64,000 bases of DNA from Cupriavidus pinatubonensis. GTDB lineage: Bacteria; Pseudomonadota; Gammaproteobacteria; Burkholderiales; Burkholderiaceae. This document shows, piece by piece, positions 28,300 through 54,157 of the stretch. Position 1 is the stretch's first letter. Every line of letters begins with the position of its first letter. Both the position numbers and the translations under genes were made by a program. The notes beneath the pieces are model-generated. The model had not been told where the DNA came from. It ran no database searches and worked only from the letters and a program-made list of their open reading frames with translations. Location: positions 992,001 to 1,056,000 of the forward strand of contig NZ_CP080766.1 of assembly GCF_019602855.1 (NCBI RefSeq), read 5' to 3'.

Positions 28300-28375
28300 G
28301 TGGGACACCATAAGAAAAAAAGAGCGACAGCCGTTTCCAGGCGCCGCCCAACTCTCGAGCACGAGAAGTCAATAA

Positions 28376-29419: not shown

Positions 29420-29444
29420 TGCAGTCTCCGGTTCAAGCTTTTGT

Positions 29445-31167: not shown

Positions 31168-31174
31168 GGCGGCC

Positions 31175-34957: not shown

Positions 34958-34991
34958 CTTTCTATCTCGAAATCCTGTCGGTCACAACGAT

Positions 34992-36041: not shown

Positions 36042-36093
36042 TTCTTTACTCCAGTTTGTGTTTTGAGGAACGGCTACCCGTGCTGCGTGCGGG

Positions 36094-40164: not shown

Positions 40165-41268
40165 TCACTTCCAAGGATCCACCGTAACGTGGACGGCGCC
40201 CTCCACGCCGCGACCGGCAGTGGCAAGGATCGCCTCGTGCGTCTGTGCCAACCCGAAGGTATGCGAACACACTTCATCGAGCGGATAGCGGCCTGAGCCG
40301 ATGTAGCGCAGGGCGAGTTCCACCGCCGCGTAGCTGCGCCCGCGCGGAGCACGCACGGTCAGGTAGCGCTTCTTGATCTCGCCGATCGGTACGCTCTGCG
40401 CCAGGCCGTTCAGGCTCAGGTACGCGCCCTTGGCAGCCAGGCCAATGGCAAGCTGCGCCACTTCGCCGGTCGGATCGCCAGTGGTATCCACCACCACGTC
40501 GACGCCGCGACCATTGGTCAGGCGCATGACTTCGGCATGGAGATCCTGGTTCTGCACGTCGATGGCATGGTCCGCACCGAGGCGCAGCGACAGGTCGAGC
40601 CGGCTGCGATCGCGGGTCATGCCGGCGAGGATCACCATCAGGGACCCTGCGGCCTTGGCCGCCAGCACGCAACCCAGTCCCTGCTGTCCGGGACCGAATA
40701 CCAGCACTGTCTTGCCGGGCCCGGCGCCGCCGTCATTGCATGCCCACTGCACGCCGTTGCCGAACGGCACCGCGAGGGTGGCGTGGACGGCGGGCATATC
40801 GGGCGGGATCACGTGCATGACCGTATTCAGCGGCAAGTGCATGTACTGCGCGTAGCCACCCCACAGGTGCGGTGCAATGGTGCAGGTCGACATGCCGAAA
40901 CGCAGCGTGTTGAGCCGGTCCTTCACATTGAAGAAGTCCACCTCCATGCACAGTCGGAAGTCGCCCTTCATGCACCATTCACAGTGCCAGCACGGCAGGT
41001 ATTCGTGCAGCGCCACGCGGTCGCCGGCCTTCACGCCCCAGCGTTGCTGCGCAATGGGGCCAAGCTCGACGATGGTGCCGACATTCTCGTGCCCCATGAT
41101 GACAGGAGCGTGCTCGGACTTGCGATACAGCTCCGGATCGCTGCCGCCAACGCCGCTAGCCTCCACCTTGAGGATGCCTGAGTCCGGCTGCACTAGTGGG
41201 TAGTCGAACTCCCTCAGCTCGGTCGTCTCGACACCAGTCTTGACTGCCGCGAGTACTTTCCTTGTCAT
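40165..41268 (-). CDS. Zinc-type alcohol dehydrogenase, catalytic Cys missing
   Basis: A 367-residue medium-chain dehydrogenase. The structural-zinc cysteines are present (CWHCEWCMKGDFRLC), the cofactor fold shows VLVFGPGQQGLGCVLAA, and MGHENVG carries the usual His/Glu. The expected catalytic-zinc motif GxCGSD reads GVGGSD, so the Cys ligand is Gly (about residue 38). Activity may not be a classical zinc ADH. ATG 41268 follows AAGGAGATTTG. It lies between the two amidohydrolase genes with almost no gap on the upstream side (one base), so it may oxidise a hydroxy or hemiacetal intermediate, a role like LigC. Confidence 0.82.
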   Translation of the reverse strand: MTRKVLAAVKTGVETTELREFDYPLVQPDSGILKVEASGVGGSDPELYRKSEHAPVIMGHENVGTIVELGPIAQQRWGVKAGDRVALHEYLPCWHCEWCMKGDFRLCMEVDFFNVKDRLNTLRFGMSTCTIAPHLWGGYAQYMHLPLNTVMHVIPPDMPAVHATLAVPFGNGVQWACNDGGAGPGKTVLVFGPGQQGLGCVLAAKAAGSLMVILAGMTRDRSRLDLSLRLGADHAIDVQNQDLHAEVMRLTNGRGVDVVVDTTGDPTGEVAQLAIGLAAKGAYLSLNGLAQSVPIGEIKKRYLTVRAPRGRSYAAVELALRYIGSGRYPLDEVCSHTFGLAQTHEAILATAGRGVEGAVHVTVDPWK

Positions 41269-41269
41269 A

Positions 41270-42067
41270 TCAAATCTCCTTCCAAAATATACGGCGCGCG
41301 GTATCGCCAAGGATGGCCTCGCGAACCACTGCCGGATGGTCGAGGAGGCATTCGCGCACTAGCGCCAGGGCATTGCCATAGCCTTCACGGCTGCTCACCA
41401 CCGGAAAATCGCTACCCCACATCAGGCGCTGCGCGCCGAACGCTGCAATGGCGGCCTCCAGCAGCGCTGCCGCCTCACCGCCGAACGTGGGGCCGTCCCG
41501 CAGCGCGCCGGGCGCACGAGGCGCCAGTTCCCCGAGGCCGGGAACCTTGAGGCACACATTGTTGAAGCGGGCCAGCCGCAGCACCGTGTAGCGCAATTCG
41601 CCATCGGCCACGGTCTGCATCGGCTTGCTGGTGTCGCCGAGATGCTCCAGCACGACCGTCAGGCCCGGCACCGCCTGCAGCAGATCGGCAAAGGCTGGCG
41701 TGGTAAACGCTTCGGCATTGCCGACGCAACTGACCGGCAGGCCGCAAGCTTCTGCGGCCCGCCAGATCGCCAGCGGATCGTCGCCGGGCGAGCGGGCTCC
41801 CGGGCGCAGGCGCACGCCGGCGGCACCTTCGTCCGCCAACCTTGCAAGCGCGCGCGGAGCGTCCGGCGCGGCCGGGTCAATCCAGACCACGCTGGCGAAT
41901 CGGCCTGGATGCGCGCGTACGCAATCCGCCTGGTAGCGGTTGTCCGCCTGCCCGATCATCTGCGTCAGCACCGCACGCGCCACGTCGTGACGCTTCATCT
42001 GGCAGAGCAGCGTCTCCACCGGCTCGTACCAGACCTGCGAGACATGCGCGTGGCTATCGATCAGCAT
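41270..42067 (-). CDS. LigI/PDC hydrolase-like amidohydrolase 2
   Basis: A 265-residue amidohydrolase_2 protein. DSHAH at residues 4-8, VVLEHLGDTSKP and LMWGSDFPVVSS supply the barrel metal and acid residues. Same family as the protein at 39226-40077 but only distantly similar, so they probably act on different lactones or on successive steps. Starts 7 bases after the Rieske oxygenase gene stop and ends one base before the alcohol dehydrogenase start; clearly one operon. Confidence 0.82.
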   Translation of the reverse strand: MLIDSHAHVSQVWYEPVETLLCQMKRHDVARAVLTQMIGQADNRYQADCVRAHPGRFASVVWIDPAAPDAPRALARLADEGAAGVRLRPGARSPGDDPLAIWRAAEACGLPVSCVGNAEAFTTPAFADLLQAVPGLTVVLEHLGDTSKPMQTVADGELRYTVLRLARFNNVCLKVPGLGELAPRAPGALRDGPTFGGEAAALLEAAIAAFGAQRLMWGSDFPVVSSREGYGNALALVRECLLDHPAVVREAILGDTARRIFWKEI

Positions 42068-42074: not shown

Positions 42075-43328
42075 TCAGGCCGTCAGGGCCACGTCCGGAT
42101 TGAGTGGGACCTCCTGCTTCCACGTGCGCTCGTTGCTGAAGATCACCGTCGCCGCGCGAATCTGCGGGAACGGAATCGGCGCGGTCAGCACGCTGGGCGC
42201 CTCGCCGCGTTCGGCCAGCGCGCGGGCAGTGCGGATCATCTGGCGGCGCCAGGCCACCACGGCCACGTCGGACGTGCCGAGGTGTTCCTTGGTACGGTCC
42301 AGGATGCGGCCCTGCGTTTCGCTGACCGCGTGGTCCTGCGTCAGGATGCCCTTGATGCCCGACATCGACCCGGTCTTCATCCACTCGCGGTCCTGCTGGT
42401 ACCAGTTGTCGATATTGAGCTTCTTGCGGAAGTTCTCGTCGACCCAGTGGCCGCCCTCCTCGATGCGATAGGCAACATCCACCGGTTGGGTGTCGTCGAA
42501 GAACCACTGGACGTGCCACGTGGATTCGTCGTCGCGCGGCACGAAGGCGTTGGCCATGCGGCGGTTCTTGCGCACGCCGAAGCCGTCGGGCGGGATCAGC
42601 GTAAAGAAGGGCAGCACCACTTCGGTCACGCGCGCATGCAGCTTGCCTTCTTCGCGGAAGTTGCGCACGCCCGCGTAGCGCAGGCCGTACTTGGTGTATT
42701 CGACTTCGATCTTCGGTTGCAGGTCGCGCTCATGGTCGTACTTCGCGGGCGCGCTCCACGGCTGCTCGCGGTGCAGCACACCGGCATGGGCCGAGTCGAT
42801 GGTACCTTCCACCGCCTGCGCGTAATTGCAGTCTTCCAGCACCTTGAAAGGCACGGCGTTGACGGCCGGGTACGACAGCCACTCGAATTCCGGGAATTGC
42901 GGCTCCTCGGCGGCGGGGCCCATGTAGGTCCAGATCACGCCGCCCGCTTCCCGCGTCGGGTAAGCCTGCGCGCGAATGCGCGAGCAGAAGGCGGAACCGG
43001 ACGGCTCGGTGGGCGTGTCCAGGCAGGTGCCGTCGGTGGCGAACTTCCAACCGTGGTAGAGGCAGCGCAAGCCGCCGTCGGAGTTGTCGCCCAGCGCCAG
43101 CGACGCGCGGCGGTGCGGGCATTGCTCGTCGAGCAGGCCCACCTTGCCATCGGTATCGCGGAAGGCCACGAGATCTTCGCCGAGCAACCGCACGCGCACC
43201 GGCTTGCCACCGGGCTCTGCAATCTCGGATGCCAGAAGCGCCGGAATCCAGAAGCGCCGGATCAGTTCGCCCATCGGGGTGCCGCGGCCAACCTGGGTCA
43301 GCACATTGTTGTCTTCGCGAGTGAGCAT
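42075..43328 (-). CDS. Phthalate 4,5-dioxygenase-type Rieske oxygenase
   Basis: A 417-residue terminal oxygenase. The Rieske ligands are C70/H72 and C89/H92 (EQCPHRRAS, LRCLYHGWK). The mononuclear iron site is in EGTIDSAHAGVLHREQPW. The opening MLTREDNNVLTQVGRGTPMG is typical of the phthalate/3-chlorobenzoate dioxygenase group, whose reductase partner is a PDR-type fusion as encoded at 46473. ATG 43328. It hydroxylates or demethylates an aromatic acid; the exact substrate is unknown. Upstream gene is the 102-residue hypothetical, downstream amidohydrolase 2. Confidence 0.9.
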   Translation of the reverse strand: MLTREDNNVLTQVGRGTPMGELIRRFWIPALLASEIAEPGGKPVRVRLLGEDLVAFRDTDGKVGLLDEQCPHRRASLALGDNSDGGLRCLYHGWKFATDGTCLDTPTEPSGSAFCSRIRAQAYPTREAGGVIWTYMGPAAEEPQFPEFEWLSYPAVNAVPFKVLEDCNYAQAVEGTIDSAHAGVLHREQPWSAPAKYDHERDLQPKIEVEYTKYGLRYAGVRNFREEGKLHARVTEVVLPFFTLIPPDGFGVRKNRRMANAFVPRDDESTWHVQWFFDDTQPVDVAYRIEEGGHWVDENFRKKLNIDNWYQQDREWMKTGSMSGIKGILTQDHAVSETQGRILDRTKEHLGTSDVAVVAWRRQMIRTARALAERGEAPSVLTAPIPFPQIRAATVIFSNERTWKQEVPLNPDVALTA

Positions 43329-43388
43329 AGGTCCTCCTATCTTGAATCGGTGTATCGTCTTTGTGGGAAAAAACGGCCTGCGCCGGCT

Positions 43389-43697
43389 TCAGTCCAGAAG
43401 CGCGATGGCGCGGCCGAGTCGTTCACGGGCGGCAACGGTGTCTCCGTCGTTGCCAACCAGGTCATGTGCTTCGATCACCAGCGAGCGCATCGCCTCCAGG
43501 CGCTGCAATTGCTTTGCGCTGCAACCGTCGCGAGCAGCATTGGCGACGTCGGCGTCGAGCAGGCGCCAGACCTCGTCCAGTTCGGATTCCCGGTAGATCA
43601 TGTGTTCCACTTCGCGGGAGACCGCCATCCGCTCGCAGATCGACGACAGCGTGGCGGCCGAGTAGTCGTCGATGGAAGTCAGTTCGTCGGCATGCAT
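43389..43697 (-). CDS. Hypothetical helical protein of the Rieske operon
   Basis: A 102-residue acidic protein, largely helical by composition (ERMAVSREVEHMIYRESELD, LQRLEAMRSLVIEAHDL). No transmembrane segment, signal or known motif was recognised. ATG 43697 has a weak GGAAAG upstream. It sits 23 bases after the monooxygenase gene and 60 bases before the Rieske oxygenase gene in the same direction. Conserved operon position would argue for an accessory role in oxygenase assembly or as a small subunit; this is inference only. Confidence 0.6.
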   Translation of the reverse strand: MHADELTSIDDYSAATLSSICERMAVSREVEHMIYRESELDEVWRLLDADVANAARDGCSAKQLQRLEAMRSLVIEAHDLVGNDGDTVAARERLGRAIALLD

Positions 43698-43720
43698 GGG
43701 GCTTTCCACTCGGCGCGCCG

Positions 43721-44938
43721 TTACCGGCCCTTCGGGCCGAATTTCGAGGGCTGCAGGCCAATGACCGCACGTCCGTAGCTGGTCATGGCGCTGTCCCACG
43801 TAAAGGCGAAGTGCTGGGCGGCGGAATTTACGTCGCGCCAGATTCTCTGCAACTCGGAACTGTTGTAGATACCGGACCCGCCGGCTGCTTCGAACAGCGC
43901 GTTTACCGCGTAGCGCGCCTTCTGCGCGGCATAGGCCCAATCGCGTGGAATGCGTGCCCAGTCCAGGTCGCTGATCGAGCGCGGATCGTCCGCACTGTCT
44001 ACACGTCGCGCATCCTCGCGCACCACGGCCAGCGCCGCGTCGATCTCGGCCACCGATTCCGCCACCCGTGCGAACGTGGCCGATTGCTCGGCTGCCTGTT
44101 CACTGCTGAACGTGGCCAGGCGCGCCGCCAGCCCGTCGGAGAATGACCGCACCGCCGCACGGGCCATGCCTAGTGGCGCGCCCACGAGCGAAAACGGCGT
44201 GACGTTCTGGAACGGCATCCGGTAGATCGGTGCGCGCACCGATCCGGTTTCATCGGCCATGCCCGACATCATGTCCTTCACCGATACCGAGCGATGCGCC
44301 GGGATGAACGTATCGGCGATTCGGATCGAGCGGCTACCGGTGCCGCGCATGCCTGCCGTGAACCAATCGTCAACGATCTCGATATCCTCGCGCGGCACCA
44401 CGAAGAAGCGCGGCTCCGGCGGTTGGCCCTCACGCTGCACCGCATTGCCGACAATGACCCATTGGACATGGTCGATGCCGGAACAGAAGCGGCCGTCGCC
44501 GTTGACCAGCCGATAACCGCCGTCCACTTCCGTGACGGTGCCGCCGAGACGGAACACGGTCGCGGTCAGCACGCGGTCGGCGCTCATCACTTCGCGCTGC
44601 GCCTGCAGCGGGAACAGGTTCAGCATCCAGCTATGGCCGGCCAGGACACCATAGACCCAGCCGGTCGAGCCGCACGCGGAGGCGATCTCGGCAGTCACGT
44701 CGACCAGCGTCGCGAAGCCCAGCTCCGAACCGCCAAACATGCGCGGCGTCACGACGCCGAACAGGCCGGCTTCCATCAGCTCGCGGATGGTCTCGGCAGA
44801 TACGATGCGCTCGCTTTCGGTACGGTCGGCGCGCGCGCGGATCTTGTCGTGCAGCGCACGCGCCGCGGCAATCGCGGCATCGTGGCTGGCCAGTACGGGG
44901 AGGCTACCGGAAGCGGTTGCCAAGGGGGATGTGCTCAC
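43721..44938 (-). CDS. Acyl-CoA-dehydrogenase-fold flavin monooxygenase (HsaA/DszC-like)
   Basis: A 405-residue group D flavin-dependent monooxygenase, which uses reduced flavin delivered by a separate reductase. It shows the ACAD-like fold (LFGVVTPRMFGGSELGF, ACGSTGWVYGVLAGHSWML, GRFCSGIDHVQWVIVG, GMRGTGSRSIRI). Absence of a catalytic Glu pattern and the aromatic context point to hydroxylase rather than acyl-CoA oxidation. Start is GTG 44938 with AAGGAGACAAGAC upstream. The likely flavin reductase is at 52320-52871, at the far end of the divergent plus arm. Confidence 0.82.
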   Translation of the reverse strand: MSTSPLATASGSLPVLASHDAAIAAARALHDKIRARADRTESERIVSAETIRELMEAGLFGVVTPRMFGGSELGFATLVDVTAEIASACGSTGWVYGVLAGHSWMLNLFPLQAQREVMSADRVLTATVFRLGGTVTEVDGGYRLVNGDGRFCSGIDHVQWVIVGNAVQREGQPPEPRFFVVPREDIEIVDDWFTAGMRGTGSRSIRIADTFIPAHRSVSVKDMMSGMADETGSVRAPIYRMPFQNVTPFSLVGAPLGMARAAVRSFSDGLAARLATFSSEQAAEQSATFARVAESVAEIDAALAVVREDARRVDSADDPRSISDLDWARIPRDWAYAAQKARYAVNALFEAAGGSGIYNSSELQRIWRDVNSAAQHFAFTWDSAMTSYGRAVIGLQPSKFGPKGR

Positions 44939-45040
44939 GTCTTGTCTCCTTTGTGAGGACGTACGCCTCCGCGCCGCGCGCCGGTGACGCCGCGGCGAGG
45001 CATGGTTCGTCGTTTCTGAATGGTTCGGCCGGGGCGGCCG

Positions 45041-46198
45041 TCAGGTGCCGGTGCGCATGCGGTCCTCTACCTTCTCGCGCTCGTCGGCTTGCAGGAACCA
45101 GCGATAGTGGCCGCCCTTCGAGATGGGGGGCAAGTTGTCGGCAACCGTGTACCAGTTCTCGCCACCGTCTTCGCTGGCGTAGGTTTCGCCGGTCGCGGTG
45201 CCGGCCAGCAGCATCACCTGGTCGGCCCAGTGATACAAGCCCATGCCTTCGATATTGCCGATAACTTCTGCCGGCAGGCCGTTGCGGATTTCCTGCCACG
45301 TTGCGCCGCCATCGCGGCTGCGCAGCACGGTGGCATCGGCGCTGCGCTTGGAGCCCCAATCACGCGGCGCGTTGCCCGGCCCGCCGAGGTACAGCACGTT
45401 CTCGTCGCGCGGGTCGATAAACATGGCATCGGGGTAGCCAATACGGTCCGCACGCGTCATCAGGTGTGTCCAGGTCTCGCCGGCGTCGGCGCTGTAGTGC
45501 AGGCCTTCGCCACCGCACATGAAAAGCTGTGCAGGGTTCGACGGACGGATCAGAACGCGGTGGTTGTCGTGATAGAACTTGTCCTGCGCGGACTCATAGC
45601 TGCGCGGCTCGGTCCAGGTGGCCCCATCGTCCGTCGTCTTCAGCAACGCGCCCTGCTCGATGCATACGTACAGCGTGCCCGGTTGCGCCGGATGAAAGGC
45701 CACGTTCTTGACATGTGCGACGTGCGGCGGCGGCGGGAACGTCCACTTGTCCTGGTCCGGCACAGACAGCATGGCCGAGACTTCCTCCCAGTTTTCGCCA
45801 AGGTCGTCGCTCCGATACAGGGCTGAGGGCTCGGTGCCCAGATAGAGCACCACACGGCCGTCGCGCTGCTGTGCCGCCAACGTGTAGACGTGTTCGCTCT
45901 TCAGGCCATTGCCACGCGGTTCCCACGTGACGCCGAGGTCGCGACTGACCCACATGCCCCCCTTGCCGTGCGCGCCGGCAAACAGCAACCCTGATTGCGG
46001 CTCGAACAGCAGCGCGCTCACGTGACGGTCTTCCAGCGCCGAGCGGGTCCGCTGCCAGGGCGCGCCTTGCCCTGTCCGCTCGAATACGTGCATGCCACGC
46101 AAAGTGGCGACGAAAAGTCGGGTGGCCGGGCCGCTGCCGTGTGTGACCGTGCCGCCGTTGCAAGAGAGGACTGCGATCAATTTGTTCTCCATTTCCAT
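45041..46198 (-). CDS. BNR/Asp-box repeat beta-propeller protein (sialidase-like fold)
   Basis: A 385-residue protein with at least six Asp-box motifs (SRDLGVTWE, SDDLGENWE, TDDGATWT, SADAGETWT, SRDGGATWQ, SEDGGENWY), so a beta-propeller. No signal peptide was seen, so it is probably cytoplasmic. Asp-box proteins include sialidases, photosystem assembly factors and substrate-binding scaffolds. No sialidase active-site Arg triad could be confirmed. It is the first gene of the minus arm, 103 bases upstream of the monooxygenase gene. Role in aromatic degradation is unexplained. Start ATG 46198; no strong ribosome site. Confidence 0.78.
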   Translation of the reverse strand: MEMENKLIAVLSCNGGTVTHGSGPATRLFVATLRGMHVFERTGQGAPWQRTRSALEDRHVSALLFEPQSGLLFAGAHGKGGMWVSRDLGVTWEPRGNGLKSEHVYTLAAQQRDGRVVLYLGTEPSALYRSDDLGENWEEVSAMLSVPDQDKWTFPPPPHVAHVKNVAFHPAQPGTLYVCIEQGALLKTTDDGATWTEPRSYESAQDKFYHDNHRVLIRPSNPAQLFMCGGEGLHYSADAGETWTHLMTRADRIGYPDAMFIDPRDENVLYLGGPGNAPRDWGSKRSADATVLRSRDGGATWQEIRNGLPAEVIGNIEGMGLYHWADQVMLLAGTATGETYASEDGGENWYTVADNLPPISKGGHYRWFLQADEREKVEDRMRTGT

Positions 46199-46472
46199 GT
46201 GACGCGGACGGTGCTACTGCGCTGCACGATGCCGCTGCCGGTTTCCGCCAGTGATGTGCCCTTCGGGCCGATGCCCGGGAAAGTCCACGCATCAAGATGC
46301 TTTGACTTTTTTCTTGTTAGTCGAAATAATATGCAAAAAAGAATTTCGCGTCAACGACGAAGCGAGCGACAGCGGGCCTCTCCTTATCGGTCCCACGCCG
46401 CACGCTTCGGACACCAGGCGCCGGCAGGCATATGCCTCGCCGCATCACTGAACGTCGTCACTGGAGACACAC
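46199..46472. promoter_or_regulatory. Divergent promoter region of the two arms of the island
   Basis: About 270 bases between the minus-arm (46198) and plus-arm (46473) starts. The AT-rich core near 46310-46345 contains AATAATAT (46325-46332), the complement of the ATATTATT start of the 13-mer found at 25971 and 38357. It is the natural control point for both arms. Confidence 0.5.
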
Positions 46473-47435
46473 ATGAACGACCTGCCCCAGTTCACGGGCG
46501 CCCTCCTTGAGTTGCGCCTGGAGTCGATTCAATTCCTCGCCCGCGACACGCTGCTCTACGCCTTCGCGTCTCCCGTGGGCGCCGCGCTGCCGCCGTGCGA
46601 GCCGGGTTCCCATATCGGCTTGCACCTGCCCAATGGCCTGGTGCGCCAATATTCGCTGCTCGAAGGTGGCCGCGAGCCGCGGCGCTACCAGGTAGGGGTG
46701 AAGCGCGACCCCAAAAGCCGCGGCGGTTCCAGCTTCATGCACGAGCAGTTGCGCCCCGGCGCGGTGATCCAGGCGGAGCCGCCGCGCAACAATTTCCCGC
46801 TGAATGAAGAGGCCGAGCATTCGGTGCTGGTCGGTGGCGGCATCGGCATCACGCCGATCCTGTGCATGGCGAGGCGCCTGAAGGCGCTGGGCCGCTCGAT
46901 GACACTGGTGTACTCGTGCCGCGACCGCGTCGACGTCGCCTTCCTCGAGGAACTGCGCAGCTACGAGAACCTGCACCTGCACATCGACGCAGAAGCGGGC
47001 GGCGTGCTCGACATCGCCGAAGTAGTGAAGGCGCATCCGGCCAACACGCACTTCTATTGCTGCGGCCCGGGCCCGATGCTGGCGGCCTTCGAAGCAGCCA
47101 CGGCCCACCTGCCTGCGGCGCAGGTCCACGTCGAGTATTTCACCGCGAAGCAGGAAGCCGCGCTGGACGGCGGCTACACGGTCGAACTGAAGCGCAGCGG
47201 CAAATCTCTGCAGGTACCGGGTGGCAAAACCATCCTGCAGGTTCTCAAGGATGCCGGCGTGGAAGTGGCGCACTCCTGCGAGGAAGGCGTGTGCGGCGCC
47301 TGCGAGACGCGCGTGCTATCCGGCATTCCCGATCACCGCGACGCCATCCTTTCCGAACCGGAGAAGGCGGCCAACAACACCATGATGATCTGCTGCTCGG
47401 GTTGCAAGGGCGAGCGGCTGGTCCTCGATCTGTAA
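46473..47435 (+). CDS. Phthalate dioxygenase-type reductase (FMN, NAD, 2Fe-2S)
   Basis: A 320-residue single-chain electron donor for Rieske oxygenases. Order: FMN-binding barrel with RQYSLLEG, NAD-binding part with LVGGGIGITPILCMA and CCGPGPMLAAFE, then a C-terminal plant-type ferredoxin with CEEGVCGACETRVLSG and a final Cys in MICCSGCKG. It passes electrons from NADH to the oxygenase Rieske cluster. ATG 46473 follows GGAGACACAC. First gene of the plus arm, divergent from the arm encoding two Rieske oxygenases; only one reductase is seen, so it may serve both. Confidence 0.93.
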   Translation: MNDLPQFTGALLELRLESIQFLARDTLLYAFASPVGAALPPCEPGSHIGLHLPNGLVRQYSLLEGGREPRRYQVGVKRDPKSRGGSSFMHEQLRPGAVIQAEPPRNNFPLNEEAEHSVLVGGGIGITPILCMARRLKALGRSMTLVYSCRDRVDVAFLEELRSYENLHLHIDAEAGGVLDIAEVVKAHPANTHFYCCGPGPMLAAFEAATAHLPAAQVHVEYFTAKQEAALDGGYTVELKRSGKSLQVPGGKTILQVLKDAGVEVAHSCEEGVCGACETRVLSGIPDHRDAILSEPEKAANNTMMICCSGCKGERLVLDL

Positions 47436-47463
47436 GTCATTTCATCCCAACCGGAGACATCCC

Positions 47464-48477
47464 ATGATCATTGACTGCCACGGCCACGTCAGCCCGCCCG
47501 CCGAACTCTGGGTCTACAAGGCTCACATCCTGTCGCATCGCGGCGAGCACGGGCGCAAGATGCCCGAGGTGACGGACGAGGAGATCCTCCACTACGCCAA
47601 TCGGAAGGAGATGGGGCCGGCCGGGCACATCGACCTGCTTGACCGCGTGGGCACCACCGTCCAACTGCTGTCGCCGCGTCCGTTCCAGATGATGCACAGC
47701 GCGAAGCCGGGCAAGCTGGTGCACTGGTTCACCGAGGAGACCAACAACATCATCGCCCGCACGGTAAAGCTGCTGCCCAAGCGCTTCATCGGCGTGGGTG
47801 GGCTGCCCCAGGTGGCTGGCGATCCGATTGAAGTGGTGCTCCCGGAACTGGAACGCTGCGTGAAGGAACTGGGCTTCCGCGGCGTGCTGCTCAACCCGGA
47901 CCCATTCGAGAACAACGGCGCTGAAGCGCCACCGCTGGGCGACCGTTACTGGTATCCGCTCTACGAAAAGCTGTGCGAGCTCGACATTCCCGCGCACATC
48001 CACGCCACCGGCTCACACTCCGCACGGTCGCCGTACACCGTTCACTTCATCAATGAAGAGACCATCGCCGTGTTCGGCCTGGTGAACTCCGACGTGTTCA
48101 AGGACTTCCCGTCGCTGAAGATCCTGGTGTCGCACGGCGGCGGCTCGATCCCCTACCAGATTGGCCGCTTTCAGTCGGGTGCCGCGCGCGCGGGCCGCGA
48201 CTTCCTGGCCGGAATGCGCAACCTCTACTACGACACCGTGCTGTATTCAGAGGAGTCGCTGCGCCTGCTGATCAAAACCGTCGGCGCGGACCGCTGCCTG
48301 TTCGGCGCCGAGTGCCCAGGCGTCGGCTCGCAGACCAATCCGGCTACCGGCCGCACCTTCGACGACATCAAGCCGTTCATCCAGGGCTTCGACTGGCTGT
48401 CGCCGGAAGAGAAGGACCAGATCTTCTTCGGCAATGCGCAAAAGTTGTTCAACCTCGACCTGGCGGCGTACCGCTAA
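47464..48477 (+). CDS. ligJ: LigJ-like 4-oxalomesaconate hydratase (amidohydrolase superfamily)
   Basis: A 337-residue amidohydrolase_2 enzyme. The metal site begins DCHGH (residues 4-8); LNPDPFENNGAEAPPLGDRY, HATGSHSARSP and SHGGGSIPYQIGRF match LigJ of the protocatechuate 4,5-cleavage pathway. LigJ hydrates 4-oxalomesaconate to 4-carboxy-4-hydroxy-2-oxoadipate. ATG 47464 has CCGGAGACATCCC upstream. The next genes encode an extradiol dioxygenase and RraA-family aldolases, supporting the assignment. A decarboxylase of the ACMSD type is the main alternative. Confidence 0.8.
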   Translation: MIIDCHGHVSPPAELWVYKAHILSHRGEHGRKMPEVTDEEILHYANRKEMGPAGHIDLLDRVGTTVQLLSPRPFQMMHSAKPGKLVHWFTEETNNIIARTVKLLPKRFIGVGGLPQVAGDPIEVVLPELERCVKELGFRGVLLNPDPFENNGAEAPPLGDRYWYPLYEKLCELDIPAHIHATGSHSARSPYTVHFINEETIAVFGLVNSDVFKDFPSLKILVSHGGGSIPYQIGRFQSGAARAGRDFLAGMRNLYYDTVLYSEESLRLLIKTVGADRCLFGAECPGVGSQTNPATGRTFDDIKPFIQGFDWLSPEEKDQIFFGNAQKLFNLDLAAYR

Positions 48478-48507
48478 ACGCGCGACGACGCCCGGAGGAG
48501 AGCAAGC

Positions 48508-49524
48508 ATGGCAGAAATCGTACTCGGCATGGGCACCTCGCATGGTCCCATGCTGGTCACGCCGCCGCACACATGGGGCTCGCGCCTGCCCGACGACCGC
48601 CGCAGCCTGCATCACTACCAGGGCCGGACATGGACGTTCGATGAGCTGGTGCAGCATCGCGCGTCGGAAAACCTGGCCGCGCAGATTACGCCGGAAGTGT
48701 GGGAAGCCCGGCACACCCGCTGCATGCAGGCCATCGAACGCATGTCGCGGGTGCTCGCGGAAGCCCGCCCCGATGTGGCAGTGATCGTCGGCAACGACCA
48801 GATGGAAATCTTCGACGACATGCTCGTGCCCGCGTTCAGCGTGATGTGGGGCGAGACCATCGTCAACAACATGATCAGCGACGAGAAGCTGTCGCGGCTG
48901 CCGCCGGGCGTGGCCCACGCCATGCCCGGCTACATGCCCCCGGAAGCGACATATGCCGGCGTACCGGCGCTTGGCCGCCACCTGATCGAACGCACCGTGG
49001 CCGACGGCTTCGACATCACGGCATTGAAACACCTTTCCGCCACGGAGACGCCGCACGCCTTTGGCTTCGTATTCCGGCAACTGATGAAGGATCAGGTGAT
49101 TCCCACCGTGCCGGTGCTGATCAACACGTTCTATCCGCCCAATCAACCGACGGTTGGCCGTTGCCACGCGTTCGGACGCTCGTTGGCGCGTGCCATCCGG
49201 TCATGGGACAGCGACGCACGTGTGGCCATCATCGCCTCTGGCGGCCTGACCCACTTCGTCATCGACGAGACCGTCGATCAGTTGATCCTCGACAGCATGC
49301 GCGCGCATGACTTCGCGCCCGTGGAGGGGCTGGGCGAGGCGATCTTCCAGGCCGGGACCTCCGAGGTCAAGAACTGGATTCCCGTGGCCGGCGCGATGGA
49401 CGAGCTCGGCTTCGGCATGGAAGTGATCGACTACGTGCCGTGCTACCGCAGCGAAGCGGGCACGGGCAATGCGATGGGCTTCGCCTGCTGGCGGCCCGAC
49501 AACAACAAGGAAGCCATTCGATGA
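48508..49524 (+). CDS. LigB-type extradiol dioxygenase
   Basis: A 338-residue class III extradiol ring-cleavage dioxygenase. GTSHGPML near residue 10 carries the first metal His and ASGGLTHFVID near 250 a later site; VIVGNDQMEIFDD is also typical. The family includes protocatechuate 4,5-dioxygenase beta (LigB) and gallate dioxygenase. No separate small alpha subunit (LigA) is visible, so it is probably a single-chain enzyme like gallate dioxygenases. ATG 48508 follows GGAGGAGAGC. The stop overlaps the next start (ATGA). Confidence 0.85.
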   Translation: MAEIVLGMGTSHGPMLVTPPHTWGSRLPDDRRSLHHYQGRTWTFDELVQHRASENLAAQITPEVWEARHTRCMQAIERMSRVLAEARPDVAVIVGNDQMEIFDDMLVPAFSVMWGETIVNNMISDEKLSRLPPGVAHAMPGYMPPEATYAGVPALGRHLIERTVADGFDITALKHLSATETPHAFGFVFRQLMKDQVIPTVPVLINTFYPPNQPTVGRCHAFGRSLARAIRSWDSDARVAIIASGGLTHFVIDETVDQLILDSMRAHDFAPVEGLGEAIFQAGTSEVKNWIPVAGAMDELGFGMEVIDYVPCYRSEAGTGNAMGFACWRPDNNKEAIR

Positions 49525-50183
49525 GTACCCCCGACGAATATGTGCGCCGCCTGCGCCGGCTGGATTGCTGCGCGGTGTCCGACACGCTCGACAAGCTCGG
49601 CCTTCCGGGCGTGGTCAGCGGCGTGCGGCAGGAAGCCGGCGAGGGCCGCATCGCCGGTCGCGTGATTACCGTGCAGCTCGGCACGGGCGCGCCGCCACCG
49701 GGCGAGCCCCGCCACTTGGGCACCACCGCCATTGAGGCCGGCGGCGCCGACGACGTGATCGTCGTCGAGCAGCGCACCGGCGTCGAGGCGGGGAGCTGGG
49801 GGGGCATGCTGTCGCTCGGCGCGAAGGTGAAGGGTATCGCGGGCGTGGTGGCCGATGGTCCCGTGCGCGACATCGACGAAGCGCGCGCGATGAACTTTCC
49901 CATCTTCGCCTCTTCCCTCACCGCCCGTACCGCGCGCGGCCGCATCGTCGAGAAAGGTACCAACGTGCCGATCCGCGTGTGGGGCATTGACGTCGATGCC
50001 GGGGACTACGTTCTCGCCGACCGCAGCGCTGTCATCTTCATCGCCGCGGCGAACATCGACCGGGTGCTCGAGGCCGCGGAAGGCATCGTCGCCCGCGAAG
50101 CTCGCATGGCCAAGGCCGTTCTGGCCGGTACACCGATCAGCCAGGTCATGGGCGGCAACTACGAATTCATGCTGAAGGATTAA
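49521..50183 (+). CDS. RraA/LigK-family aldolase-like protein 1
   Basis: A 220-residue RraA-fold protein. The family includes 4-carboxy-4-hydroxy-2-oxoadipate/HMG aldolases (LigK) that release pyruvate. Core motifs: DTLDKLGLPGV, LGAKVKGIAGVVADGPVRDIDE (the RD pair carries the aldolase metal site) and IRVWGIDVDAGDYVLADRS. ATG 49521 overlaps the LigB stop by ATGA, so it is translationally coupled. First of three adjacent, non-identical paralogs. Confidence 0.82.
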   Translation: MSTPDEYVRRLRRLDCCAVSDTLDKLGLPGVVSGVRQEAGEGRIAGRVITVQLGTGAPPPGEPRHLGTTAIEAGGADDVIVVEQRTGVEAGSWGGMLSLGAKVKGIAGVVADGPVRDIDEARAMNFPIFASSLTARTARGRIVEKGTNVPIRVWGIDVDAGDYVLADRSAVIFIAAANIDRVLEAAEGIVAREARMAKAVLAGTPISQVMGGNYEFMLKD

Positions 50184-50186
50184 GTC

Positions 50187-50864
50187 ATGTCAGAACAGAT
50201 CGAAGACCGCAACGTCGCTCGCGCCGGCAGGCTCGACACCGCCACGCTTAGCGACGCCATGGACCGCCTCGGCATCGTCGGCCAATGCCGCGCCATCAAG
50301 CCGCGCGATGCCGGCTTCCGCATGGCCGGCCGCGCCTTCACCATCCTCTACGGCCCCGCCGCCAGCCCGCCGGGCACCGTCGGCGACTTTATTGACGACG
50401 TGCCACCCGGTCACGTGATCGTGCTGGACAACGGTGGCCGCACCGATGCCACGGTCTGGGGCGACATCATGACGGAGATCGCCCATCGCCGCGGCATCGC
50501 CGGCACGGTAATCGACGGCATCAACCGCGATGTGCATCTTTGCCTGTCGCTCGGCTACCCCGTGTTCTCGCGCGACAACTGGATGCGCACCGGCAAGGAC
50601 CGCGTGCAAGTGGAGGCCACTAATGTGCCGGTAAATATCGGCGACGTGCGCGTGGCACCGGGGGACATCCTGCGAGGTGACGCAGACGGCCTGGTATCGA
50701 TCCCACGTGATCACGAGGAGCGCATCCTGGCGGCCGCCGAAGAGATCGAAGCTGCGGAGAACGCCATTCGCAAGGCAGTCGCCGGCGGCATGCGTCTGGA
50801 CGAGGCCCGCGCCGAGTACCGCTACCATCAACTGCAGACGCGCGCCGAAGGAGCGAAAGCATGA
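50187..50864 (+). CDS. RraA/LigK-family aldolase-like protein 2
   Basis: A 225-residue paralog with LSDAMDRLGIVGQCR, GIAGTVIDGINRDVHLCL (RD present) and VRVAPGDILRGDADGLVSI. Sequence differs widely from copies 1 and 3, so the duplication is old or the genes were recruited separately. It starts 3 bases after copy 1 and its stop overlaps the start of copy 3 (ATGA). Could be an alternative aldolase, an oxaloacetate decarboxylase or a heteromeric partner. Confidence 0.8.
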   Translation: MSEQIEDRNVARAGRLDTATLSDAMDRLGIVGQCRAIKPRDAGFRMAGRAFTILYGPAASPPGTVGDFIDDVPPGHVIVLDNGGRTDATVWGDIMTEIAHRRGIAGTVIDGINRDVHLCLSLGYPVFSRDNWMRTGKDRVQVEATNVPVNIGDVRVAPGDILRGDADGLVSIPRDHEERILAAAEEIEAAENAIRKAVAGGMRLDEARAEYRYHQLQTRAEGAKA

Positions 50865-51535
50865 CATTGTCCATCGACCGCATCGATCCGCGCGACACCA
50901 CGCAACTGGATTTCGCGCGTACCGCTCCGCAGATCGTCGACGCCGCCCGTGCCGTCCCAACGGCCACGCTGCACGAGGCCGGCGGGAAGATCGGAGCGTT
51001 TCCGTCCGCGATCAAACCCGTCGCACCGGGATTCAGGCTGTGCGGCCCCGCCGTCACAGTGCATGCGCCGGGCGGCGACAACCTGTGGCTGCACCGCGCC
51101 ATCTATGCCGCGCAACCAGGCGACGTGCTGGTGGTGTCGGTCAGCGACGCTTTCGAGCACGGCTACTGGGGGGAGGTCATGTCCACCGCCAGCCAGGTGC
51201 GCGGCCTCGCCGGCCTGGTCATCGACGGCTGCGTGCGTGATGGCGTGCTGCTGGAAGAGATCGGCTTCCCGGTGTTCGCCCGCGGACTTTGCATCCGCGG
51301 CACCGGCAAGGATTTCGGCGCGCGCGGCTGGATCAATGCACCGACCGTGTTTGGCGACGTCACCGTCCATGCTGGCGACCTGATCGTCGGCGACGGCGAC
51401 GGCGTGGTCTGCATTCCGCGCGACAGTGCGGGCAAGGTGGTGGACGCCGGCCTTGCGCGAGAAGTGAACGAGGCTGATCAGTGCCGCCGACTCCGTGCGG
51501 GCGAGGCCACGCTCGACATCTTTGGCTGGCGCTGA
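50861..51535 (+). CDS. LigK-like 4-carboxy-4-hydroxy-2-oxoadipate aldolase (RraA-family protein 3)
   Basis: A 224-residue RraA-fold protein with the fullest LigK pattern: ATLHEAGGKIGAF, LWLHRAIYAAQPGDVLVV, HGYWGEVMSTASQVRG, GLVIDGCVRDGVLLEEIGF and VHAGDLIVGDGDGVVC. Expected reaction is cleavage to pyruvate plus oxaloacetate. ATG 50861 overlaps the stop of copy 2. Of the three, this is the best candidate for the LigK step; the others are uncertain. Confidence 0.84.
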   Translation: MTLSIDRIDPRDTTQLDFARTAPQIVDAARAVPTATLHEAGGKIGAFPSAIKPVAPGFRLCGPAVTVHAPGGDNLWLHRAIYAAQPGDVLVVSVSDAFEHGYWGEVMSTASQVRGLAGLVIDGCVRDGVLLEEIGFPVFARGLCIRGTGKDFGARGWINAPTVFGDVTVHAGDLIVGDGDGVVCIPRDSAGKVVDAGLAREVNEADQCRRLRAGEATLDIFGWR

Positions 51536-51552
51536 GGAAGGAGGCAGACGAC

Positions 51553-52299
51553 ATGAAGGAAAGCATCGACGACAAGACGACGATCCGCACGAGCTGGATC
51601 GACATCCCCGCAGCCGATGGTCGCGCGTACCAAGGCTATCTCGCGCTGCCGCCAGCGAGAACGGGCCCCGGGATTGTCCTCTTCCAGGAAATCTTCGGCG
51701 TGAACCGCCATATCCGGGCCGTAGCCGAGCAGTACGCGCAACTGGGCTTTGTCGTGCTCGCGCCCGACGTGTTCTGGCGGCAGGCGCCGCGCGAATCGTT
51801 CGGCTATGTGGGCGATGAAGCCGCTCGCGCGCGTGACATGCTCATTCGCGCCGACATGGCAGAGATCGAGAGCGAACTGGAAGGCACCGTGCGATCGCTG
51901 CGCGAGCGTCCCGAAGTGACGGGCGGCGTGGGGGCGCTCGGCTTCTGCATCGGTGGCCGCCTGGCCTATCTGGCCGCCGCTGCGGGACTGGTGGACACCG
52001 CCGCGTGCTACTACGGCGGCGGCATTCAGGACCAGTTACAGAAGGCGTCGGCTGTGCGTTGCCCGATGCTGTTCCACTACGGCGAGACCGATCCCATGAT
52101 CCCGGTCGCCGCAGTCGAGCGGGTCAAGGCAGCCTTTGCCGACCGCGACACGGCGAAATTCTTCGTCTATCCCGGCGCAAGCCACGGCTTCAACTGCTGG
52201 GAGCGTGCCAGTTATCAGCGGCTCGCCGCGATGCAGGCGCACGGTCGGACGGTGCTGCACTTCGCCCGCCATCTCGCCGCAGCCCCCACGGTCGCATAG
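51553..52299 (+). CDS. Dienelactone hydrolase
   Basis: A 248-residue cytoplasmic hydrolase with the classical Cys-Asp-His triad: nucleophile GFCIGGRLAYL, Asp in YGETDPMIPVAA and His in PGASHGFNCWE. VLFQEIFGVNRHIRAVAEQYA is the standard N-terminal motif. It opens dienelactones to maleylacetate-type products. ATG 51553 follows AAGGAGGCAGACG, 17 bases after the third aldolase stop. Its presence beside a meta-cleavage lower pathway suggests a lactone formed from the ring-fission product, or a side reaction. Confidence 0.92.
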   Translation: MKESIDDKTTIRTSWIDIPAADGRAYQGYLALPPARTGPGIVLFQEIFGVNRHIRAVAEQYAQLGFVVLAPDVFWRQAPRESFGYVGDEAARARDMLIRADMAEIESELEGTVRSLRERPEVTGGVGALGFCIGGRLAYLAAAAGLVDTAACYYGGGIQDQLQKASAVRCPMLFHYGETDPMIPVAAVERVKAAFADRDTAKFFVYPGASHGFNCWERASYQRLAAMQAHGRTVLHFARHLAAAPTVA

Positions 52300-52319
52300 C
52301 CTCCGGACGGAGAACTCGC

Positions 52320-52871
52320 ATGAGCATCGACGCCAACCAGTTCAGGACAGCGATGCGCTGCCTCGCCGGACATGTCTGCCTGATTACCACGTTGTCGGCG
52401 GACGGCTCGCGTGCGGGGCTAACAGCCACGGCCGTCTGCTCGGTCTCGGCCGATCCGCCCACGCTGCTCGCCTGTGTCAACCGCAACAGTGCGTCGTTCC
52501 ACGCGATCCAGGCGTCAGGGATCTTTGCGGTGAACGTGCTGGCGGTGGAAAGCCGCCGGCTGGCGGACCGCTTTGCCAGCCCCATACCGGCAGAGGAAAA
52601 GTTTGCCGACGGCGTATGGGGACGCGCCAGCACCGGCGCGCCAGTTCTCCGCGACGCGTTGGTCAGCTTCGATTGCCGAGTGGCCAGTGCGTTGGACGTT
52701 GGCACGCACGGCATTCTCTTCGGCGCCATCGACACCGCAACGCCCCGCGCCGACCGCGCCCGGCCGCTGCTGTACGCGCACGGCAGCTACGGCGAATTTT
52801 CATCGACCGACGCTGCCGCAGCTCCAGAACTGCTCTGGATTCCGACATGGGACCCGGAGCCTGCTAGCTGA
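52320..52871 (+). CDS. Flavin reductase (HpaC/HsaB-like)
   Basis: A 183-residue small flavin reductase domain protein. Core text: RCLAGHVCLITTLSADGSRAG, LTATAVCSVSADPPTLLACV and the later GVWGRASTGAPVL. Such enzymes reduce FMN or FAD with NAD(P)H for group D monooxygenases. ATG 52320 follows GGACGGAGAAC. No monooxygenase partner adjoins; the ACAD-fold monooxygenase at 43721-44938 in the divergent arm is the obvious candidate. Confidence 0.85.
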   Translation: MSIDANQFRTAMRCLAGHVCLITTLSADGSRAGLTATAVCSVSADPPTLLACVNRNSASFHAIQASGIFAVNVLAVESRRLADRFASPIPAEEKFADGVWGRASTGAPVLRDALVSFDCRVASALDVGTHGILFGAIDTATPRADRARPLLYAHGSYGEFSSTDAAAAPELLWIPTWDPEPAS

Positions 52872-52966: not shown

Positions 52967-54157
52967 ATGGCTTTTCGGAAGAAAAAGCTGGCAATGGCAC
53001 TTCGCCATCTGTCATTTGGCATTGCAATGACAGCCGCGACCACAGTGACGCACGCGCAGGGCAGCGTCACCATCGGCGGCCTGCTGGACGAAAGTGTCGC
53101 GCTCTATCGAGACAACGGCGGCCATTCGAACGTCCGCATGCAGGATTCCGCGATCTACCCATCGAAGTTCTACGTGCGCGGCACCGAGGACCTCGGTGGC
53201 GGCCTGCAAGCATCGTTCAGCCTGGACTCGATGATTTCCCTCAGCACCGGGGCGCTCGATCCGCAATCGCGCGGCGCATTGTTCGAGAACTCGGCTTGGG
53301 TCGGCATGCGAAAGGTTGGAATCGGCGGCTTACGCCTCGGGCAGCAGAACGACTTCGCGTTCGACTACTTCCTGATCGGCGCGATCGACCCCGCCACCGG
53401 CATCGCGGGCGGCATGCTGAACTTCCGCACCGGGAGCTTCGGTGCGGACCTGCTCGGGCTCAAGGGCCCTGCGCAGATCGGCGCCGGTCTTGCCGCCGGT
53501 GGGCCATACGCGCCCTACACCAATGCCGCTGGCGTGCCGGTGGGCATGTCGGCCATCAACTGGGACCGCGTGGGCGGCAAGCGGATGTCAAACGCCGTCA
53601 AGCTGACGACCGACGAGATCGCCGGCTTTTCGGCCGGCTTGATGTACAGCTTTGGCGAAGTGGCGGGAGACTTCCAGAACGGGTCCGGCAAGAGCGCGGC
53701 GATCGGGTATCACCACGGAGAAACGCGCGCCGCCATGGTCTATACCGAGCAGAACTACGGGGCGGTAAATGGAGGACAGAGTGGCATCGCCAACTTCCTC
53801 GCCGGCGCCCGCACCAAGGTATCGCGCTTCGATTTCTCGGGCATGTACAGCCAGGCGCGCAACACATTCACCGGAGCGAGGATCTACGCGGTGGCCGGCG
53901 GCATCGGTTATGAACTGACGCCGGACCTGATTCTCGGGGGCGCCTATACCTACGAGAACGGCAACGAGCAACTGAAGAACGTGATCATTCACCAGGGCGC
54001 GCTCCAGTTGACGTATACCTTTTCCAAGCGGACCGCCGTCTATCTGGTGGGCGTGTATCAGCACACTAACGGCGCCTATGCCGCGGAAATCGGCAACATC
54101 CTGGCCAGCGGGAAGATTCAATCCGTGGCGGCAGTCGGCATGATGCACCGCTTCTGA
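52967..54157 (+). CDS. General porin (Gram-negative)
   Basis: A 396-residue outer-membrane porin. Signal peptide about residues 1-30, mature start QGSVTIGGLLDESVA. The chain ends MMHRF, the terminal Phe needed for barrel assembly. RGTEDLGGGLQASFSL is a typical barrel turn. ATG 52967 follows CGGAGACACGG. Second porin of the island, at the distal end of the plus arm; probably entry of the substrate. Confidence 0.9.
   Translation: MAFRKKKLAMALRHLSFGIAMTAATTVTHAQGSVTIGGLLDESVALYRDNGGHSNVRMQDSAIYPSKFYVRGTEDLGGGLQASFSLDSMISLSTGALDPQSRGALFENSAWVGMRKVGIGGLRLGQQNDFAFDYFLIGAIDPATGIAGGMLNFRTGSFGADLLGLKGPAQIGAGLAAGGPYAPYTNAAGVPVGMSAINWDRVGGKRMSNAVKLTTDEIAGFSAGLMYSFGEVAGDFQNGSGKSAAIGYHHGETRAAMVYTEQNYGAVNGGQSGIANFLAGARTKVSRFDFSGMYSQARNTFTGARIYAVAGGIGYELTPDLILGGAYTYENGNEQLKNVIIHQGALQLTYTFSKRTAVYLVGVYQHTNGAYAAEIGNILASGKIQSVAAVGMMHRF

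Follow-up and report, generated by a model that had tools for sequence, protein, structure and literature searches.

A divergent gene cluster in Cupriavidus pinatubonensis that probably encodes a LigX/LigZ/LigY-type pathway for a biaryl carboxylate

The DNA analysed here is a 64-kb stretch of the Cupriavidus pinatubonensis genome (the window), in which an aromatic catabolic locus spans approximately 27 to 55 kb and consists of two divergent arms plus an outer arm. The genes of the two divergent arms, recognized in the initial annotation, were confirmed; however, the interval given there, 42075..52871, leaves two amidohydrolases and a dehydrogenase outside, and its gene list lacked a beta-propeller gene, a 102-aa ORF and the whole outer arm (27052-37121, minus strand). 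The inner minus-strand arm codes for a BNR/Vps10-type beta-propeller protein (45041..46198, assigned by Pfam), an ACAD-fold two-component flavin monooxygenase resembling HsaA and HpaH-C2 (43721..44938; HsaA model, PDB 3afe/2rfq), a conserved 102-aa protein predicted to form four helices (43389..43697; 49-97% in 10 relatives), a Rieske oxygenase with a LigXa-type C-terminal domain (42075..43328; LigXa_C 160.4 bits, and Rieske), the cog3618-like amidohydrolase AH2 (41270..42067; Amidohydro_2), an MDR (zinc) alcohol dehydrogenase (40165..41268; ADH_N/ADH_zinc_N) and a second cog3618-like amidohydrolase, AH1 (39226..40077; Amidohydro_2), both amidohydrolases being lactonase-like by distant family. 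They are followed on the same strand by a GntR/FCD regulator (38529..39224; Pfam GntR and FCD), the start codon of which is uncertain, and a porin (37140..38216), so named by sequence judgement. On the plus strand lie a PDR/VanB-type reductase with NAD-binding and [2Fe-2S] domains (46473..47435; Fer2 and NAD_binding_1), a LigY-type meta-cleavage C-C hydrolase (47464..48477), a LigZ-like class III extradiol dioxygenase (48508..49524; Pfam LigB), three RraA-fold proteins, RraA1 (49521..50183), RraA2 (50187..50864) and the CHA/HMG-aldolase-like RraA3 (50861..51535), a dienelactone-hydrolase-fold protein (51553..52299; Pfam DLH), a flavin reductase (52320..52871; Flavin_Reduct, with matches to RutF, HsaB and HpaC) and a porin (52967..54157; Porin_4). 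A second GntR/FCD regulator (54192..54857; Pfam GntR and FCD) is encoded on the minus strand. All parts listed in the initial annotation (Rieske oxygenase, MDR dehydrogenase, ACAD-fold enzyme, reductase, LigB-superfamily dioxygenase, three RraA-fold proteins, dienelactone-hydrolase-fold protein, flavin reductase and two Amidohydro_2 proteins) are thus present, but several of its labels had to be changed.

The outer arm contains genes for a SnoaL-like (36630-37121) and a DoxX-like (36094-36633) small protein, both with weak Pfam matches below the cut-off, a VanA-type Rieske oxygenase (34992..36044; Pfam VanA_C and Rieske), a dehydrogenase/reductase-like FAD_binding_2 flavoprotein (33386..34957; PF00890, 138.6 bits), an MFS transporter (31976..33340; Pfam MFS_1), a further DoxX-like small protein (31440..31907; no Pfam match), an enolase-superfamily (MR/MLE) protein (29995..31170; Pfam MR_MLE_C, 177.6 bits), two DoxX-like small membrane proteins (29445-29942 and 28615-29109, the latter with no match in a Pfam scan) labelled by their resemblance to 36094-36633, and an MFS_3 exporter-like protein (27052..28362; Pfam MFS_3), all on the minus strand. 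Four outer flanks (L103-L106) were compared, and the flavoprotein (77-95%), the MR/MLE protein (72-95%), the MFS transporter (62-95%) and the 29445-29942 gene occur in all of them. The 28615-29109 gene is present in L103 and L106, and 95% copies of the 31440..31907 gene and of the porin at 37140..38216 were found in L106, for the former in L106 only. The exporter-like gene has copies in G591 (59%) and in C. necator UYPR2.512 (88%), with none seen in the remaining two flanks.

The protein encoded at 47464-48477, initially described as a LigJ-like hydratase, is LigY-like. With LigY of SYK-6, the C-C hydrolase of the pathway by which Sphingobium degrades 5,5'-dehydrodivanillate (DDVA), a two-ring lignin fragment, it shares 65% identity across 333 columns; it scores 500 bits against LigY and 213 bits against LigJ, and matches PDB 5vn5 with an E value of 3.6e-149 (the LigY structures being 5vn5/6e6i); the LigY used for comparison, which stems from a ddv cluster, is identical to the PDB LigY over 332/332 residues. 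Eight positions, which we take to be catalytic or zinc-binding sites, are invariant in 32/32 aligned LigY-type rows, and the protein is among the best-conserved members of the gene set (86-99% in betaproteobacterial copies except G773 with 59%, and 72-74% to sphingomonads). The LigB-family dioxygenase shares 44.6% identity over 336 columns with SYK-6-type LigZ. In a tree of 30 dioxygenase rows, a branch with 99/95 support separates the 14 sister-type rows from the ddv-type LigZ rows. This split ignores 14 rows of neither group and involves just two ddv rows, with 17/500 shuffles giving a value as low; the sister type may or may not be one closed clade. The Rieske oxygenase at 42075-43328, which carries the motifs CxH-X16-CxxH and NxxQ..D..H....H, is 33% identical to SYK-6-type LigXa and 59% identical to the Rieske oxygenase of a related cluster in a genome that also carries a ddv cluster. 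Based on the LigY-, LigZ- and LigXa-type assignments, the core of the locus corresponds to LigX/LigZ/LigY-type biaryl meta-cleavage, as known from DDVA degradation, rather than to protocatechuate 4,5-cleavage, and the earlier statement that the genes match no biaryl pathway does not stand. With a SYK-6 LigW query, itself putative and assigned from position and family, the only matches in the window were the LigY-like gene (27%) and, by blastp, AH2 (23%, E value 9e-5), and its best own-genome match (43% over 291/345 positions) lies outside the cluster. The lack of LigW in the cluster speaks against such a pathway here, as it leaves no account of how a 5-carboxyvanillate-like product would be decarboxylated.

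A search for the same gene set elsewhere, as had been suggested, revealed 14 related sets in Cupriavidus, Paraburkholderia and sphingomonads, that is, in two proteobacterial classes. AH2, the Rieske oxygenase, the ACAD-fold oxygenase, the BNR protein, LigY, the LigB-family dioxygenase, RraA1 and RraA2 are present in 14/14 of these sister sets. Gene order is conserved among the betaproteobacterial copies, whereas G773 and the sphingomonads show rearrangements, and the sphingomonad copies have no reductase gene nearby. The recurrence of the gene content in two classes indicates that the arrangement is not due to chance. In the literature covered, which leaves most subscription journals outside, no description of the gene set was found, in agreement with the initial view that it is possibly undescribed. 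The two inner arms are separated by a 55-bp block (46300..46354) that is kept in an alignment of 11 loci and contains two interlocked promoter-like sites (plus strand 46302-46330, minus strand 46354-46326; 2 found versus 0.1 in shuffles). A 22-mer of this block is unique within the window, and a 21-mer was absent from the three more distant loci in which it was sought (G773 and the sphingomonad copies). Judged from its sequence, the block probably acts as a shared divergent promoter driving both inner arms in the close relatives.

In our view, the locus probably serves to degrade a biaryl carboxylate that carries hydroxyl and, probably, methoxyl groups, by way of a LigX/LigZ/LigY-type pathway that would be a sister of the DDVA pathway with a different substrate. 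In such a pathway, the Rieske oxygenase and its reductase could perform an O-demethylation and/or the ACAD-fold monooxygenase and the flavin reductase an ortho-hydroxylation, yielding a 2,3-dihydroxybiaryl. The LigZ-like dioxygenase would open the dihydroxylated ring beside the biaryl bond, and the LigY-like zinc hydrolase would cut the C-C bond to give an aromatic acid and 4-carboxy-2-hydroxypenta-2,4-dienoate (CHPD). The three RraA-fold enzymes, of metal/enolate type, could then convert CHPD by hydration to 4-hydroxy-4-methyl-2-oxoglutarate and further to two pyruvates. AH1, AH2, the MDR dehydrogenase and the VanA-type Rieske oxygenase, flavoprotein and enolase-superfamily enzyme of the outer arm may serve in substrate preparation or in processing of the aromatic acid. 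Candidate substrates include ellagic acid or other lactones; a literature search on ellagic acid returned no paper containing the term.

The locus shares with the SYK-6 DDVA system a LigXa_C-type Rieske oxygenase, a LigZ-like dioxygenase, a LigY-like hydrolase and an RraA1-RraA2 pair beside LigZ/LigY. It differs in the divergence of its dioxygenase (45%) and Rieske oxygenase (33%), in the lack of LigW from the cluster, in the location of the reductase gene, which is within the operon whereas LigXc/LigXd of SYK-6 are encoded elsewhere, and in its additional genes (ACAD-fold oxygenase and flavin reductase, RraA3, two amidohydrolases, MDR dehydrogenase, BNR propeller and outer arm). One might argue that it is simply the DDVA pathway of Burkholderiales, with the same substrate, divergent enzymes and other enzymes of the cluster replacing LigW on 5-carboxyvanillate. 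The identity of the hydrolase to SYK-6 LigY would fit this, as would the presence of two Rieske enzymes from families resembling O-demethylases, of which the VanA-type gene is found at 69-93% in 9/14 sister sets (29-31% in two sphingomonad sets). However, a genome with a LigY identical to that of SYK-6 (G917) contains both an ordinary ddv cluster (L092) and a sister set (L085, L095-L097), which looks like a distinct sister pathway, the dioxygenase is placed across a supported branch from LigZ, and the ACAD-fold oxygenase, AH1, AH2, the MDR dehydrogenase and the BNR protein have no counterpart in the stretches around the ddv cluster. We therefore regard this explanation as unlikely. It is still less probable that the compound degraded is not a biaryl but, for example, a polyphenol, an aryl ketone or a diaryl ether, broken down by C-C or ester hydrolysis, with the LigY-type hydrolase acting on another ring-fission product. 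LigY relatives do co-occur with many different upstream oxygenases, and the presence of the lactonase-like AH1 and AH2 and of an ACAD-fold hydroxylase would fit a substrate that is a lactone or a phenol, but the strong conservation of LigY and its closeness to genuine LigY argue for a similar ring-fission product. The initial proposal, in which an upper pathway leads into protocatechuate 4,5-cleavage by hydrolase, LigJ hydratase and LigK aldolase, can be rejected as highly improbable, since, although LigY and LigJ are related and RraA3 scores as a CHA aldolase, the hydrolase scores far higher against LigY, the amidohydrolases are just remote LigI relatives and the host genome codes for a protocatechuate 3,4-dioxygenase (beta chain 360.5 bits, cut-off 296.4). 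A riboflavin/lumichrome pathway with a Rieske and an extradiol dioxygenase was likewise rejected; in the accessible text of PMC12746152, RraA and LigY terms occur 0 times and ring cleavage, hydratase and aldolase are named otherwise.

For the biaryl pathway that we favour, the RraA trio deserves particular attention. RraA proteins are known as aldolases and decarboxylases, and the metal/enolate motif of HMG/CHA aldolases is presumably D-X20-RD or G-X20-RD-X2-E/D. RraA1 carries G-X20-RD-X2-E in 30/30 rows and RraA2 D-X20-RD in 29/29, whereas RraA3 has E or D-X20-RD in 24/24, with the variant E form in 20 and D in 4. The existence of two motif types in RraA-fold aldolases is described in the available part of PMC5065237. 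The locus proteins thus share fold family and R-D motif with HMG/CHA aldolases and RraA proteins, but differ in forming three paralogous clades (99-100% support each), whose genes mostly keep one order and whose motifs are clade-specific and nearly invariant. The label of three LigK-like aldolases holds only in part: RraA3 passes one CHA-aldolase model (NF006731, 186.8 versus 179 bits) and fails another (TIGR02798, 173.1 versus 304.5), and RraA1 and RraA2 fall below both cut-offs. RraA1 and RraA2 are 56% and 73% identical to their ddv-cluster namesakes. When sets with a LigY at least 59% identical were collected and RraA counted as presence, given that identities are diluted by paralogue matches, both shared a stretch with LigY in 30/31 sets, including the SYK-6-type ddv cluster; the exception was a second copy in one genome (G718, L061) with no RraA gene near LigY. 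Outside these 31, no RraA genes were found in the stretches of LigY relatives of 44-50% identity (e.g. L068, L069).

None of the cluster genes codes for a member of a known hydratase family, which counts against the proposed scheme. Table 2 of PMC12673573 gives the CHPD hydratase of SYK-6 as 'NI' (not identified). We tentatively propose, at somewhat less than even chance, that RraA1/RraA2 supply the hydratase activity, or both the hydratase and the aldolase activity, that LigY-type biaryl pathways, the DDVA pathway of SYK-6 included, have so far lacked an enzyme for, and that the locus represents a second such pathway, acting on a substrate not yet described and common to Cupriavidus, Paraburkholderia and SYK-6. 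If true, the RraA fold would gain hydration as a new activity, and in any case these proteins are concrete candidates for the step listed as not identified. In Paenibacillus sp. B2, extradiol cleavage, C-C hydrolysis, hydration and an HMG aldolase are likewise proposed for DDVA breakdown by the mhqPOD route, but, according to the accessible text of PMC12673573, MhqP is an azoreductase, MhqO has <15% identity with LigZ and the proposed hydratase is UxuA, which is not RraA-like. In the parts of these sources available, DDVA degradation is reported in 2025 (PMC12673573) outside the earlier-known group that includes aromaticivorans (PMC8027834). The occurrence of a LigXYZ-type set in Paraburkholderia and Cupriavidus extends the known range, and the SYK-6-like genome holds a second, apparently unstudied copy; a literature search with SLG_197 to SLG_202, weak in that these tags were estimated from position, found no relevant description.

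Among the accessory proteins, the ACAD-fold oxygenase resembles HsaA and p-hydroxyphenylacetate hydroxylase C2 in family and in having a flavin reductase gene, its likely partner, in the locus, but differs in scoring below both NCBIfam cut-offs (HsaA 278.3 versus 450 bits; second model 228.6 versus 650). AH1 and AH2, previously called LigI-like, do belong to Amidohydro_2, but their kinship to LigI (PDC hydrolase) is remote, with best E values of 1.5e-7 and 7e-15. The MDR dehydrogenase is found at 71-98% in 13/14 related sets. The AF2 models of the 102-aa and beta-propeller proteins have pLDDT values of 91.8 and 87.6; a fold search with the former gave 0/256 matches at E<=0.001, and the latter matched propellers of general type as well as a Ralstonia eutropha protein that is itself uncharacterised (Foldseek, 3b7f, E 9e-21, 23% identity). 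When the ACAD, flavoprotein, MR/MLE and Rieske proteins were used as queries against plasmids, nothing appeared among the matches listed. The dienelactone hydrolase was rejected as a core step, as in-operon copies (92-94%) occur in just 3/14 sister sets, all from Cupriavidus. A 29% dienelactone-hydrolase match in P. atlantica lies on the opposite strand, past the genes for the flavin reductase and GntR.

ORF and profile searches bore out the two divergent arms proposed in the initial annotation, showing an operon pair around 46.2-46.5 kb. Going outward, the minus arm encodes a beta-propeller protein (BNR), an ACAD-fold flavin oxygenase (ACAD), a conserved 102-aa protein and a LigXa_C-type Rieske oxygenase (42075-43328, minus strand), followed by an amidohydrolase (AH2), an alcohol dehydrogenase (MDR), a second amidohydrolase (AH1), a GntR regulator and a porin. 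Beyond the originally noted stretch it continues with SnoaL-like and DoxX-like small proteins and a VanA-type Rieske protein, and farther out with an FAD flavoprotein, an MFS transporter, an enolase-superfamily enzyme and an exporter; the order of this outer arm (VanA-type, flavoprotein, MFS, enolase-superfamily, DoxX2) is kept in 4/4 loci for which that flank was fetched (L103-L106). The plus arm runs from a reductase through a LigY-like hydrolase (47464-48477), a LigZ-like dioxygenase (48508-49524) and RraA1, RraA2 and RraA3 (49521-51535) to a dienelactone-hydrolase-fold protein (DLH), a flavin reductase and a porin, after which a second GntR gene lies on the minus strand. For the conserved four-helix 102-aa protein (43389-43697), a fold search gave no relative at E<=0.001. 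Elsewhere in the window, an IclR-type regulator, a fumarylacetoacetate-hydrolase-like gene and an FAD monooxygenase-like gene were seen by eye at 13377-17175, possibly a separate aromatic cluster.

An intergenic 55-bp block (46300-46354), which starts with CTTTGACTTTTTTCTT and includes AAATAATATGCAAAAAAGAATT, is kept in all 11 aligned loci (the window, three Cupriavidus, six Paraburkholderia and G591); the DNA on either side of it is not conserved. The block carries two promoter-like sites that overlap, one on each strand (2 found versus 0.1 in shuffles). A 22-mer from the block occurs once in the window, up to 3 mismatches allowed, and a 21-mer of it is present in 21 of the 125 fetched loci, all of them copies of the same intergenic region and some representing one and the same piece of DNA. 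Searches of the more distant copies, those of G773 and of the two sphingomonads, which lie outside the alignment, found neither this 21-mer nor a 15-mer core of it. Together these observations support a predicted single regulon with two arms in close relatives.

The plus-arm hydrolase had initially been read as a LigJ-like hydratase. Its best match is instead LigY, the meta-cleavage compound hydrolase of 5,5'-dehydrodivanillate (DDVA) degradation (499.6 bits, E 3.6e-149, residues 1-333 covered), compared with 203-213 bits for 4-oxalomesaconate hydratases. Residues H6, H8, R72, H180, Y191, H224, R235 and E283 in window numbering, reportedly catalytic or zinc-binding in the LigY structure, are unvarying in 32/32 aligned LigY-type proteins; these eight alone would not tell LigY from LigJ, for which the score serves. 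Because genome G917 encodes a protein identical to PDB LigY over 332/332 residues, it was treated as Sphingobium SYK-6 or a strain almost identical to it. With this LigY the window protein shares 65% identity.

The locus shares its hydrolase family with the LigX/LigZ/LigY biaryl pathway, and like workings are predicted from sequence. In the DDVA (ddv) cluster of G917 (L092), whose genes were named by means of the LigY identity and of locus tags tabulated in a review (PMC12997858), the order is LigZ, RraA1, RraA2, LigY, with a Rieske gene farther along. The window dioxygenase is 44.6% identical to this LigZ over 336 columns and the window Rieske protein 33% identical to LigXa. A search of the window's own genome with a putative LigW decarboxylase assigned by position and family found no close LigW. 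As the locus differs from the DDVA pathway in missing LigW, and clear orthology is lacking for its relatives of LigZ and LigXa, it would not, on these comparisons, be filed as that pathway. A second set in G917 (C1, about 2.08-2.11 Mb) resembles the window more than the ddv cluster does, both in the plus arm (LigY 74%, dioxygenase 59%, RraA1 66%, RraA2 74%, RraA3 62%) and in the minus arm (Rieske 59%, ACAD 63%, BNR 59%, MDR 71%, AH2 46%, AH1 38%). That a single genome holds both argues for two substrates. In a tree of 30 dioxygenases and another of 32 LigY proteins, a branch (99/95 and 100/99, respectively) separates the 14 sets resembling the window locus (sister-type) from two ddv-type rows. 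These counts skip the rows that belong to neither type (14 and 16, respectively), some of which fall within the sister type, and, given just two ddv rows, 17/500 shuffles were equally good. The G773 LigY forms a long branch outside the others. In the N-terminal 115 columns of the LigZ-like proteins, His12 is unvarying (30/30), and no conserved second histidine was found in these 30, LigZ itself included, near residues 55-70, where LigB-type enzymes carry an iron ligand. Since the window's genome has a protocatechuate 3,4-dioxygenase and VanA_C-type matches in five places, one being the window locus, a product at the level of vanillate or protocatechuate could be channelled into these enzymes.

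The locus is real and conserved, and no description of it was found in the literature searched. A contig scan with the window dioxygenase gave nine loci, all Cupriavidus or Paraburkholderia, and the gene set is present at 9/9, bar the gene losses given below. LigY was searched for in 398 genomes from the phylum, 398 from the family and 298 from a sphingomonad-like family; eight of the 398 family genomes, the window's own counted, have a LigY at least 86% identical. From the matches, 31 gene sets were picked for their long flanks and a LigY at least 59% identical, 14 sister-type and 17 other; relatives at 44-50% fall outside this count, and the only ones with long stretches (L068, L069) had no RraA genes. 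The sister-type label was set by gene content, so that co-occurrence is partly by definition, and absences may stem from limited flanks: all 14 sets contain AH2, Rieske, ACAD, BNR, LigY, LigB, RraA1 and RraA2, 13 contain RraA3 and MDR (neither in G966), flavin reductase (not P. ferrariae) and AH1 (not G773), 12 the 102-aa protein (not G773 or the SYK-6-like set) and the reductase (not the two sphingomonads), and three an in-operon DLH; the 17 others hold no BNR or AH2, MDR and AH1 twice each, and one ACAD at 31%. L059 (G591) is unevenly diverged from the window (LigY 96% and Rieske 92%, but AH2 53% and dioxygenase 82%), perhaps by transfer or differing constraint. G718, which matches Cupriavidus lacunae S23, has five LigY-like places (99%, 76%, 50%, 50% and 50%). 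The window's genome has a LigY-like paralogue (50%) at G000:C1:2154589-2155563 (L029, L068), near Rieske, reductase and TctC genes and with no RraA gene in the fetched stretch; similar pairings of a LigY-like with a Rieske gene turn up repeatedly elsewhere in the family.

RraA1 and RraA2 share a stretch with LigY in 30 of the 31 sets, usually adjoining LigY or its dioxygenase (about 7-8 kb off in G561 and G527); the sole set lacking the pair is the second copy in G718. In a tree of 83 RraA sequences, for which the program warned of long branches, RraA1, RraA2 and RraA3 form one clade each (99/99, 100/98 and 100/99). Each clade keeps its own motif: RraA1 carries G-X20-RD-X2-E (30/30), RraA2 D-X20-RD (29/29) and RraA3 E (20) or D (4)-X20-RD (24/24). 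Because hydration of 2-hydroxydienoates goes via an enolate-type intermediate, an RraA-fold metal enzyme would be chemically plausible as a 2-hydroxydienoate hydratase. One paper (PMC12673573) gives the SYK-6 enzyme for alkene hydration as not identified. For the HMG/CHA aldolase, Arg-123 is described as essential for stabilising the enolate and Asp-124 and Glu-199 as metal ligands, and homologues are said to fall under two motifs (PMC5065237). On Aminobacter aminovorans plasmid pAA01 (L101, 13995-18061), LigY-like, LigZ-like and three RraA genes follow one another, and different oxygenase genes lie upstream of them; this LigY-like gene is found on six Aminobacter plasmids, the gene row being seen on the one examined. 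At L060 (2770-8791), a LigY-RraA cluster was seen by eye beside feruloyl-CoA-synthetase-like and enoyl-CoA-hydratase-like genes, which suggests a diferulate-type substrate.
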